A stretch of 47,123 bases of DNA from a virus, in the IMG/VR virus record IMGVR_UViG_3300037493_003604, positions 1 through 47,123 of that record; one strand, written 5' to 3'. Numbering within the stretch: the first letter of the stretch is position 1; each line of letters begins with the position of its first letter. Under the pieces are notes generated by a model that had not been told where the DNA came from, did not search any database, and worked only from the letters and a program-made list of their open reading frames with translations. A program made the translations under genes and the position numbers. Positions 6,261 to 31,899 of this stretch are shown in pieces.

Positions 6261-6333
6261 GACGCAAGAGATAGATTCGAACTACCACCTTCGGCTTATG
6301 AGGCCGATGAACCACCTTTGCTCTTTCTTGCGT
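6261..6333 (-). tRNA. tRNA-Met (anticodon CAT)
   Basis: Full cloverleaf on the minus strand. Acceptor ACGCAAG (6333-6327) pairs with CTTGCGT (6268-6262). The D-stem is GAGC/GTTC, the anticodon stem TCGGC/GCCGA with loop CTCATAA (anticodon CAT), and the T-arm has loop TTCGAAT. No CCA is encoded. It lies between portal and a structural gene within the late transcript, so it would be processed from it. CAT could also be an isoleucine tRNA if C34 is lysidine-modified. Confidence 0.9.
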
Positions 6334-28434: not shown

Positions 28435-30939
28435 ATGAACGAGTACGAAAAGTTTTTAGAGAATAAGATTATCGTTGCAGAAGAATTTGGAACTGATGAT
28501 TTAAAAAGTGAAATTGATCCTAAGTTAATGCCCCATCAATATGATATTGTAAAGTGGTGTATTATGGGTGGAAGACGTGCTATTTTTGCAAGTTTTGGAC
28601 TTGGAAAAACAATGATGCAATTAGAATTAGCTCGTAAGATTATGGAAATAACAAATAAGCCTTTTTTGATTTGTATGCCTTTGGGCGTTGTTGGTGAGTT
28701 TAAGGATGATCTTGATTTTTTAGATTCTGAAATGAAGTTAAAATATATTACAGACTCCGATACTATTGAAACTGTATCTAATGATACTATCTATGTTACA
28801 AATTACGAAAGAATTAGAAAAGGTGATGTTTCTGCTGAATTTTTTGGCGGTGTATCATTTGATGAGGCTTCAATATTACGTAATTTAAAAACTGAAACTA
28901 CTAATTATGTACTTAAACATTTTAGTACTATCAATTATAGATTTGTTGCAACTGCCACACCTACCCCTAATGATTTTATTGAGATTCTAAATTATGCTGA
29001 TTATTTAGGCGTAATTGATAGAGGTCACGCACTTACAAGATTTTTTCAAAGAGATTCTACAAAAGCTGGACATCTTACACTTTATCCAAATAAAAAAGAA
29101 GAGTTTTGGAAATGGGTATCTACTTGGGCGGTATTTATAAATAAGCCTTCCGATCTTGGTTATGACGATACTGGTTATTTATTACCTAAATTAAACTTTA
29201 TTGAAATTTGCGTAGATAATATTTCAGATGAGCCTGTTTATGACAAATACGGAAAACTTATTATGTTTAAAGATAATAGCAAAAGCCTTGTAGATGTTAG
29301 CCGCGAAAAGTCAAACAGTATCAATGTAAGGGTAAATAAAGCTGTTGAAATTATATCAAAAACCCCAAATGATAATTGGATTTTGTGGCATCATTTAGAT
29401 GCTGAAAAAAATGCTATTGAAAAAGCATTAAAAAAAGATTATAATTTAAAGTCTGTTTTTGGCAGTCAAACAAATACGGAAAAAGAAAAGCTGCTAATTG
29501 ATTTTAAACATGGAGAATATCAAATACTTTCAACAAAACCAAAGATAGCTGGTTCAGGGTGCAATTTTCAGCACAATTGTAATAATATGATATTTGTTGG
29601 TATTGATTATAAGTTTAATGATTTTATTCAAGCTATACATAGATGCTACCGTTTTAAGCAAGATAAAGAGGTTAATGTTTATGCTATCTATACTCAGAAT
29701 GAATACGAAGTATTAAAAGCTCTACGCGCTAAATGGGTTAAGCACATTGAGCTACAAACAGAAATGATTAACCTTGTTAGAGAATACGGATTAAACACAG
29801 ATAAAATTAAATCAGATATGAAACGTCAAATATTCAATAATAGAAGAAGCTCAAAAATAGGTGGTGCAACTGTATTTAATGAGGATACTGTTAAAATTCA
29901 TGAAGAAATGGAATCAGATAGCACTGATATGATTTTAACATCAATTCCGTTTGGTGATCATTATGAATACTCTGATAATTATAATGACTTTGGCCACAAT
30001 CATGGCAATGAAAAGTTTTTCGAGCAAATGGACTTTTTAACTCCGCATCTGCTTAGAACATTAAAGCCTGGTAGAGTTGCGGCAATTCACGTAAAAGATC
30101 GCATAAGATACAGCTATCAAAATGGCGCAGGCTTTACAACAATTGACGATTTTAGCGGTAAAACAGTTGCGCATTTTCAAAAGCATGGTTTTTGGTTAAT
30201 TGGTAAGGTGACGATAACAACTGACGTTGTACGTGAAAATAATCAAACGTATCGTTTAGGATGGTCGGAGCAATGCAAAGACGCATCTAAAATGGGAGTA
30301 GGTTTGCCTGAATATGTTTTATTGTTTAGAAAGATGCCAACTTCACAAAATAATAGCTATGCGGATGAGCCTGTAATGCATACTAAACAAGAATACACGC
30401 GAGCAAATTGGCAATTAGATGCTCATGCGTATTGGAAATCTGATGGAAATAGATTCTTTTCGTCTAAAGAGCTTTCCGGTATGGATGTGGCTAAAATTGT
30501 AAAGTTTTGGAAAAAACATAATAAAAATGAAGTTTACAGTTTTGCGGAACATTTGAGATTATGCGAATCATTAGAGGAACAAGATAAACTATCGAGTTTA
30601 TTTATGACTTTGCCGATTCACTCTAATAATGATTTAGTTTGGACTGATATAAATAGAATGGCAACATTAAACGCTAATCAGGCGAACCGAAACAAAGAGA
30701 AACATATTTGTCCGCTTCAATTTGATATTGTTGAAAGACTTATAAATAGATTCACAATGAAAGGGCAATTAGTAGATGATCCTTTTGGCGGATTATTTAC
30801 AACAGCTTATAAATGCTTAGAGCTTGGCAGAAATGCGATAAGCACAGAGTTAAATCCTGAATACTATAATGATGGATTGTACTATTTAAAAAGCATAGAA
30901 TATAAAATAAACGTTCCATCTTTATTCGACGCATTCTAA
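28435..30939 (+). CDS. Snf2-like helicase fused to DNA methyltransferase
   Basis: 834 aa. Residues about 30-470 are an SF2/Snf2-like ATPase: Walker A SFGLGKT (53-59), DEAS (143-146), TATPTP (about 172), and HRCYRF (about 402). Residues about 490-834 are a beta-class amino-methyltransferase: catalytic motif IV appears as SIPFGD (503-508), and the SAM site DPFGG (782-786) comes last. Predicted to methylate adenine or cytosine amino groups in phage or host DNA, with the motor scanning or remodelling. The gene is far more AT-rich and CpG-poor than its neighbours and has its own promoter, both signs of recent transfer. Confidence 0.85.
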   Translation: MNEYEKFLENKIIVAEEFGTDDLKSEIDPKLMPHQYDIVKWCIMGGRRAIFASFGLGKTMMQLELARKIMEITNKPFLICMPLGVVGEFKDDLDFLDSEMKLKYITDSDTIETVSNDTIYVTNYERIRKGDVSAEFFGGVSFDEASILRNLKTETTNYVLKHFSTINYRFVATATPTPNDFIEILNYADYLGVIDRGHALTRFFQRDSTKAGHLTLYPNKKEEFWKWVSTWAVFINKPSDLGYDDTGYLLPKLNFIEICVDNISDEPVYDKYGKLIMFKDNSKSLVDVSREKSNSINVRVNKAVEIISKTPNDNWILWHHLDAEKNAIEKALKKDYNLKSVFGSQTNTEKEKLLIDFKHGEYQILSTKPKIAGSGCNFQHNCNNMIFVGIDYKFNDFIQAIHRCYRFKQDKEVNVYAIYTQNEYEVLKALRAKWVKHIELQTEMINLVREYGLNTDKIKSDMKRQIFNNRRSSKIGGATVFNEDTVKIHEEMESDSTDMILTSIPFGDHYEYSDNYNDFGHNHGNEKFFEQMDFLTPHLLRTLKPGRVAAIHVKDRIRYSYQNGAGFTTIDDFSGKTVAHFQKHGFWLIGKVTITTDVVRENNQTYRLGWSEQCKDASKMGVGLPEYVLLFRKMPTSQNNSYADEPVMHTKQEYTRANWQLDAHAYWKSDGNRFFSSKELSGMDVAKIVKFWKKHNKNEVYSFAEHLRLCESLEEQDKLSSLFMTLPIHSNNDLVWTDINRMATLNANQANRNKEKHICPLQFDIVERLINRFTMKGQLVDDPFGGLFTTAYKCLELGRNAISTELNPEYYNDGLYYLKSIEYKINVPSLFDAF

Positions 30940-31334: not shown

Positions 31335-31342
31335 TATCTTTG
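31335..31342 (+). promoter_or_regulatory. -7 box upstream of tmRNA
   Basis: TATCTTTG, about 60 bases before the tmRNA 5' end. No clear -33 box at 19 bases. Transcripts would begin upstream of the hairpin at 31371. Confidence 0.5.
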
Positions 31343-31370
31343 AATCTTTGAAACGTATAAAGTTCTTACG

Positions 31371-31400
31371 CGCCCCGTTAGTCGGATTTTGGGGCGTTAT
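31371..31400 (+). terminator. Stem-loop in front of tmRNA
   Basis: CGCCCC (31371-31376) pairs with GGGGCG (31391-31396), a 14-base loop between, then TTATTT. It could end transcripts of the replication block or be a leader removed when the tmRNA 5' end is made. Confidence 0.55.
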
Positions 31401-31404
31401 TTAA

Positions 31405-31741
31405 GGGGTCGAAAGGTATCGACAGATATAAACGGTGTTAACAGTCAGGCAAAAAACGCTTTAACCGGCAACAATTCAGACGTATCCAACGCGGGCAATG
31501 CTCGCACAGGTGAGGCCACCTACGGCCAAGAAACACAAGCGGGCCAAGTGTCAGCATAGGGAGTTTTTAATTGAGTTTGCTGATTCTTAAAATCAGATGG
31601 TGGAGCCTAAGTTTACAGACTTGGTTCGGATGCTGTCGGCCTGCGAAACTTAATGCTTCGAACGTAAAAAAACTGTACAAGCCTGTAAAATCCTGTAATG
31701 TACGAATAGACTGGACGCGGGTTCGAATCCCGCCGACTCCT
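31405..31741 (+). ncRNA. ssrA: Phage-encoded tmRNA
   Basis: About 337 bases with a tRNA-like body. The 5' GGGGTCG (31405-31411) pairs with CGACTCC (31734-31740), including one G-T pair. The 3' end carries the T-arm CGGG-TTCGAAT-CCCG, with the tmRNA-typical GGACGCGGGTTCGAA context. GTACAAGCCTGTA before it matches the usual 3' P2 region of tmRNA. Between the halves are several hairpins (for example CTGATT/AATCAG) and an open tag frame ending in codons for GQVSA and a TAG stop at 31557-31559. It rescues stalled ribosomes and tags the products. The tag end differs from the usual ALAA type. CCA is not encoded. Confidence 0.85.
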
Positions 31742-31748
31742 CAAAATG

Positions 31749-31817
31749 TTAGATATGGTGTAATTGGAAACACGGCATGGCATGGTGCGAATACAGGTTC
31801 GACTCCTGTTATCTAAT
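31749..31817 (+). tRNA. tRNA-like gene with shortened anticodon arm
   Basis: Eight bases after the tmRNA. Acceptor TTAGATA / TATCTAA is a perfect 7 bp, the D-arm GTGT/ACAC with loop AATTGGAA is normal, and the T-arm ACAGG-TTCGACT-CCTGT is perfect. The segment left for the anticodon arm and variable loop is only 18 bases, three or four short; it folds as GCAT/GTGC with a 6-base loop and shows no standard anticodon. The outer body resembles Bacteroidetes tRNA-Gln. It cannot be a normal decoding tRNA as it stands. Confidence 0.6.
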
Positions 31818-31850
31818 CAAAGTTTTTTGTAGTTTTTTAAAAGTGGTTTA

Positions 31851-31885
31851 CTGCCCGTTGTTTCGTTCACGGCGGGCAGTTTTTT
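31851..31885 (+). terminator. Terminator after tmRNA and tRNA-like gene
   Basis: CTGCCCG (31851-31857) / CGGGCAG (31873-31879) followed by six T's. It ends 15 bases before the ATG of the next gene. Confidence 0.85.
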
Positions 31886-31899
31886 AAAATCAATTATTT

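Follow-up and report, generated by a model that had tools for sequence, protein, structure and literature searches.

A phage-encoded tmRNA with a predicted 30-residue tag ending in VSA and a U at discriminator position 73

The tags that host tmRNAs add mark proteins for destruction. A locus at 31405-31741 of a 47,123-base virus record (the whole stretch that was analysed, referred to here as the window) resembles a tmRNA gene, although its tag frame ends in VSA rather than in a common LAA-type signal. This raises the question of whether the phage carries a functional tmRNA, and which tag such an RNA would attach to proteins during infection.

A tmRNA gene in a tailed phage genome

The tmRNA at 31405-31741 is confirmed as real. 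A covariance search with cmscan, as proposed by the sequence-only reading, matched the full length of RF00023 to 31405-31744 (+) with 53.2 bits (E=3e-18), above the gathering score of 47 bits, while ARAGORN run on the window missed the gene. The homologous locus in viral contig L003 scored 56.3 bits with RF00023. The acceptor stem GGGGUCG/CGACUCC is perfect, with all 7 bp paired, and its third pair, G31407.U31738, is the intact alanine identity wobble pair G3.U70. The T arm carries a loop of the UUCRA type. Within the gene, the tRNA-like domain, P2, the tag reading frame, P5, and the 3' stem-loops are arranged in the one-piece form, and CCA is not encoded (the acceptor stem is followed by UCAAAA). 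The acceptor stem, T-arm, and 3' P2 region recognized in the sequence-only reading are therefore borne out. Its attribution to a phage holds as well, since the record is a virus with genes for the terminase large subunit, head morphogenesis, a primase, and a helicase-methylase, as in a tailed phage (Table 1).

The tmRNA is flanked by phage genes on the same strand, and two viral contigs, L003 and L195, carry the same tmRNA in the same place. All three phages keep the acceptor stem, the T-arm stem, the resume signal, the frame, and the stop without change. Over aligned bases the tmRNA shares 95.9% identity with that of L003, while the neighbouring genes reach 88-91%. Compared with L195, it is 92.8% identical and thus less conserved than the neighbouring genes (97-99%). 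This homologue set comprises three close sequences only, too few for proper covariation or codon-level selection measures. By cmscan, a more distant phage relative (L200, 53% in primase) is without a tmRNA, a motif scan of contigs with helicase-methylase relatives revealed none except in L003, and a DNA search of an annotated phage collection gave no match. The nearest terminase among sequenced prokaryote species lies on a Bacteroidetes MAG contig (79% identity), from which we infer a Bacteroidota bacterium as the probable host. A search for an SmpB gene in the window found none, so the phage tmRNA would have to use the SmpB of its host.

Further elements were found around the tmRNA and elsewhere in the window. 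A tRNA-like element starts 7 nt downstream of the tmRNA (9336-9405 in L003, from 5851 in L195). Its acceptor, D, and T arms are well formed, its anticodon arm is shortened to 14 nt (4-5 bp, invariant GCAU in the loop), and its pairing is maintained through changes in the three phages. Its role may lie in RNA processing instead of decoding, possibly as a processing partner of the tmRNA. The stretch 31335-31397, directly upstream of the tmRNA 5' end, holds a terminator-like hairpin, CGCCCC...GGGGCG, conserved in the relatives, and before it, at 31335-31342, a TAtcTTTG box that resembles the Bacteroidota -7 type. A second phage tRNA, Met (CAT), is located among the structural genes at 6262-6332 (-) with 54.6 bits. 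The helicase-methylase gene (28435-30939) encodes a fused SNF2-type helicase and N6/N4 DNA methylase. Many viral contigs contain close relatives (70-79% identity), as do Flavobacterium columnare phages, e.g. FCL-2 (74%). As these relatives are widespread while neighbouring genes are not shared, the sequence comparison suggests a mobile module.

Table 1 Features of the tmRNA locus in window coordinates, with the evidence for each.
Feature	Position	Strand	Evidence and remarks
tmRNA (ssrA) gene	31405-31741	+	RF00023; homologues L003 9039-9328, L195 5539-5843
Acceptor stem P1, 5' strand GGGGUCG	31405-31411	+	Pairs with 31734-31740; sequence, cmscan structure
P2, end of 5' strand CAGGC	31446-31450	+	Pairs with GCCUG 31681-31685; duplex predicted in 3/3 phages
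Resume signal U-A-A-C-C (-5 to -1), predicted	31462-31466	+	A at -4, purine at -3, pyrimidine at -1; best matrix site
Tag reading frame, 30 codons and TAG, predicted	31467-31559	+	GNNSDVSNAGNARTGEATYGQETQAGQVSA; frame and stop kept in three phages
Hairpin GCGGGC-AAU-GCUCGC within tag frame	31491-31505	+	MFE and centroid, 3/3 phages
Hairpin AGGUG-AGGC-CACCU within tag frame	31508-31521	+	MFE
P5	31551-31583	+	Last two tag codons, UCAGCA, paired to UGCUGA 31578-31583; MFE, window and L195
3' stem-loop/pseudoknot region, ~45 nt	31623-31667	+	Absent in L003, other hairpin in L195; alignments
T arm GCGGG-UUCGAAU-CCCGC	31717-31733	+	Perfect; sequence, cmscan
Discriminator base 73, U and not A	31741	+	U in 3/3 phages
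tRNA-like element	31749-31817	+	RF00005 43.3 bits; ARAGORN tRNA-???; conserved in L003, L195
Terminator-like hairpin	31850-31890	+	Closes tmRNA/tRNA-like unit

Resume codon and tag sequence

Resume codons are preceded by a nearly invariant A at -4, a purine at -3, and a pyrimidine at -1 (PMC2481249). A position matrix was built from 47 Bacteroidota tmRNAs, all of which have A at -4 and a resume codon beginning with G, and applied to every position of the phage RNA. The top site was GGC 31467, with a score of 7.1 compared with 2.8 for the second best, just below the lowest of the 47 known sites (7.6-22.3 on the same matrix). Its context, UUAACC before GGC (in longer form CGCTTTAACC before GGCAAC), is closely similar to the Bacteroidota sites TTTTAACT and CTTTAAAC, each likewise followed by GGC, and the frame behind it is open to TAG 31557. 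The Rfam alignment places GGC AAC opposite the resume codon of the model, with only moderate posterior probability and with L003 aligned differently. Judged from these sequence contexts, GGC 31467 is the best-supported resume codon and 30 residues the best-supported tag length. The predicted tail under this reading is GNNSDVSNAGNARTGEATYGQETQAGQVSA, hydrophilic throughout (GRAVY -1.0) and ending in VSA.

Other starting points within the frame fare worse. The sequence-only reading had favoured a 16-residue tag, GEATYGQETQAGQVSA, from GGT 31509, whose beginning resembles the GE tags of Bacteroidota. This version is almost certainly wrong, as GGT 31509 has A at -1 and, at the position held by A in 47/47 Bacteroidota sites (-4), a C, and its score of -19.6 places it 99th in the RNA. 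The candidates GAG 31512, GCC 31515, GCG 31539, and GGC 31542 were rejected for their poorer contexts. The last two could nevertheless yield a short tag, AGQVSA or GQVSA, if 31467-31538 were a structural insert, an arrangement that we regard as very improbable. A possible small pseudoknot at 31508-31527 and an A-rich 11-nt linker similar to the PK1-to-tag spacing of E. coli (PMC2481249) would fit it, but GCG 31539 and GGC 31542 rank only 8th and 21st in the matrix, with bad bases at -3/-1, and GCG 31539 is GTT in L195.

The 93-nt frame of the 30-residue tag is free of indels in the three phages, with its stop conserved in both homologues, while 1-nt indels flank it in the A-run 31451-31456 upstream and directly after the stop. 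Owing to the upstream indel, the sequence ahead of it is read in another frame in both homologues, which then have an in-frame TAA upstream. The frame had initially been described as open from before 31449 to TAG 31557 and ending in VSA, which is true of the window, whereas the openness upstream of ~31457 is not conserved. Among the other frames in this region, one continues beyond the tag stop but is shifted in L003 by the 1-nt deletion immediately behind that stop, and the remaining ones end early. The differences between the three tags include several non-synonymous ones, with ...TQVGQVSA in L195 and GNNSDYSN...GQASA in L003.

The three tags thus end in VSA (window and L195) or ASA (L003), and the expectation of a tag without an LAA/YALAA ending was correct for all of them. 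A ClpXP-type ending (LAA or similar) is missing here, and such an ending is not universal among tmRNAs. The further suggestion that the normal protease signal is lacking is right as far as the missing LAA/YALAA end is concerned, but the tag still ends in Ala with a small residue before it, so that weaker rather than absent protease recognition is the safer reading. According to PMC7652416, the KM of E. coli ClpXP rises when either of the two final residues is altered. By this E. coli rule, which may not hold for Bacteroidota proteases, the V/A-S-A end should weaken, but not necessarily abolish, ClpXP-type recognition.

Internal fold and discriminator base

Two hairpins are predicted within the tag frame, and the pairing of the one at 31508-31521 survives a C-to-U change at 31517 in L003. 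The tag stop codon sits in the loop of the P5 hairpin in the predicted fold, like in ordinary tmRNAs. Between P2 and the tag no PK1 was seen, and the covariance model deletes 26 model positions there. The resume codon lies at nt 63 of the phage tmRNA, compared with nt 90-103 in Bacteroidota tmRNAs, consistent with the model-based view that pseudoknot 1 appears to be lost. The region after P5 has been remodelled between the phages, with three different 3' regions in the three genomes. In E. coli tmRNA, pseudoknots are replaceable without loss of activity (PMC2481249).

Discriminator base 73 is U31741 in the window and U in both homologues. In contrast, base 73 is A in 240/241 viral tmRNA 3' ends, in the Bacteroidota tmRNA genes examined, and in 136,822/136,846 bacterial tRNA-Ala genes (PMC6097841). 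A scan for further U73 tmRNAs found only these three phages; a fourth candidate (L373) is a serine-type tRNA. In E. coli tRNA-Ala, changing A73 to U modulates alanylation without blocking it (PMC6451123). U73 was therefore not treated as excluding tmRNA identity, and by analogy alanine charging of the phage tmRNA is plausible, though perhaps slower.

Relation to known tmRNAs and probable function

With the one-piece tmRNA of Bacteroidota, the phage RNA shares the G3.U70 acceptor stem, T arm, P2, the signal UAANY before GGC, the stop in P5, and the absence of an encoded CCA, which is common in Bacteroidota. It differs in the length of its predicted tag (30 residues compared with 9-10 in 47 Bacteroidota tags), in its VSA/ASA ending (LAA in 29 and MAA in 18 of the 47), and in U73, the resume position, the apparently absent PK1, and the variable 3' stem-loops. 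Phage-carried tmRNA is already known (PMC4131195; PMC9004378), and one survey reports it in 402/18,146 phage genomes (PMC9004378). The mycobacteriophages Bxz1 and Wildcat, Bacillus phage G, and methylophage Melnitz likewise have a complete ssrA gene, but differ in host group, tag length and ending, and base 73, with Melnitz in the two-piece form. The truncated tmRNA of the DS6A type is also phage-borne and likewise deviates in its tRNA-like domain; it has little beyond this domain, whereas the tmRNA described here keeps its tag frame. A literature search, with limited coverage of older tmRNA-variant work, found no description of a 30-residue non-LAA tag together with a seemingly missing PK1 and U73, and this combination is new as far as the tools used show.

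In a first sample of viral tmRNAs, 78/87 ARAGORN-called tags end in AA, 9/87 in another way, and 0/87 in SA, frequencies that are rough because some host genes at prophage ends are among the viral sequences sampled and because tags at loci where ARAGORN failed come from a pattern search. Long tags of 21-28 residues occur in L107, L108, L114, L120, L169, L192, and L264, and the pattern search gave plausible tags of 23-38 residues at ARAGORN-failed loci (L081, L115, L124, L180, L186). In L107, L108, L114, L115, L120, L169, L180, L186, and L192, tags of 21-38 residues follow an ordinary resume signal as in the window, but they end in a hydrophobic residue and Ala (e.g. MAA, IAA, VAA, AVA, ALA, LCA, TYA), in contrast to the hydrophilic tag with QVSA. 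Since ARAGORN missed several of them, counts of long-tag phage tmRNAs may be too low. One Bacteroidota genome with an intact tmRNA gave a further hit (L232 5001-5412, 49.3 bits) that has a broken T loop, encodes the tag GENNYALAA, and looks like a decayed host copy.

From its sequence, the gene probably encodes a functional one-piece tmRNA of a phage likely to infect Bacteroidota, which would rescue ribosomes and add a long, weakly degradable or phage-specific tag. This is supported by the covariance match above threshold, the perfect tRNA-like ends with the alanine pair, and the top-ranked resume site. Further support comes from the intact frame and stop between indels, the position of the stop in the P5 loop, the higher identity to L003 than in neighbouring genes, and the other phages with long-tag tmRNAs and good resume contexts. 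Against it stand U73, the seemingly absent PK1, a 3' pseudoknot region that is different in every homologue, the lower identity to L195 than in neighbouring genes, a resume score below the known range, and the lack of an SmpB gene in the window.

The changed base 73 and the variability of the 3' region also allow for a decoy or for decay. As a decoy, the RNA would bind SmpB, and perhaps ribosomes, while being poorly charged owing to U73 and altered folding, and would inhibit host trans-translation. A truncated phage tmRNA (DS6A) or similar RNA strongly inhibits tmRNA whether chargeable or not, perhaps by SmpB titration (PMC4131195), and both the apparent loss of PK1 and the near absence of U73 elsewhere would suit such a role. 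We nevertheless consider a decoy unlikely, as the resume signal, the 30-codon frame, and the stop in P5 are all kept, which a decoy would not need, G3.U70 is retained, and U73 is tolerated in E. coli tRNA-Ala. A captured host-type tmRNA that is shedding its parts and has no present function would equally account for U73, the missing PK1, and the three different 3' regions, as well as for an RF00023 score just 6 bits over the cut-off and the adjoining tRNA-like element with its short anticodon arm. Such a relic is rather improbable, however, given the parts unchanged in 3/3 phages, the tRNA-like arm pairing kept through changes, and an RNA better conserved than its neighbours in the comparison with L003.

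If the gene encodes a functional tmRNA, host AlaRS would charge it with alanine during infection, perhaps slowly owing to U73, and host SmpB and EF-Tu would bring it to ribosomes that broken or depleted mRNAs have brought to a halt. Translation would resume at GGC 31467, adding the hydrophilic tail that ends in VSA, and release at UAG would free the ribosome for phage synthesis. The tagged protein would probably be a poorer ClpXP-type substrate than a host protein with a 9-10 residue LAA/MAA tag, or might instead be routed by features of the long tail. A more far-reaching proposal, which we regard as possible but doubtful, is that the phage has remade trans-translation for its own use, with a U73 tmRNA that would free ribosomes and, through its 30-residue non-degron tag, spare or redirect the proteins so marked, as a member of a wider, under-annotated long-tag class missed by standard gene finders.

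If true, a conserved phage tail without the destruction mark would represent a natural separation of ribosome rescue from degradation. The U73 change would serve as a test of how much alteration of the discriminator tmRNA alanine charging tolerates. Beyond this phage, the survey suggests that tags of ~20-38 residues recur in phage tmRNAs, some of them missed by the usual gene finder.
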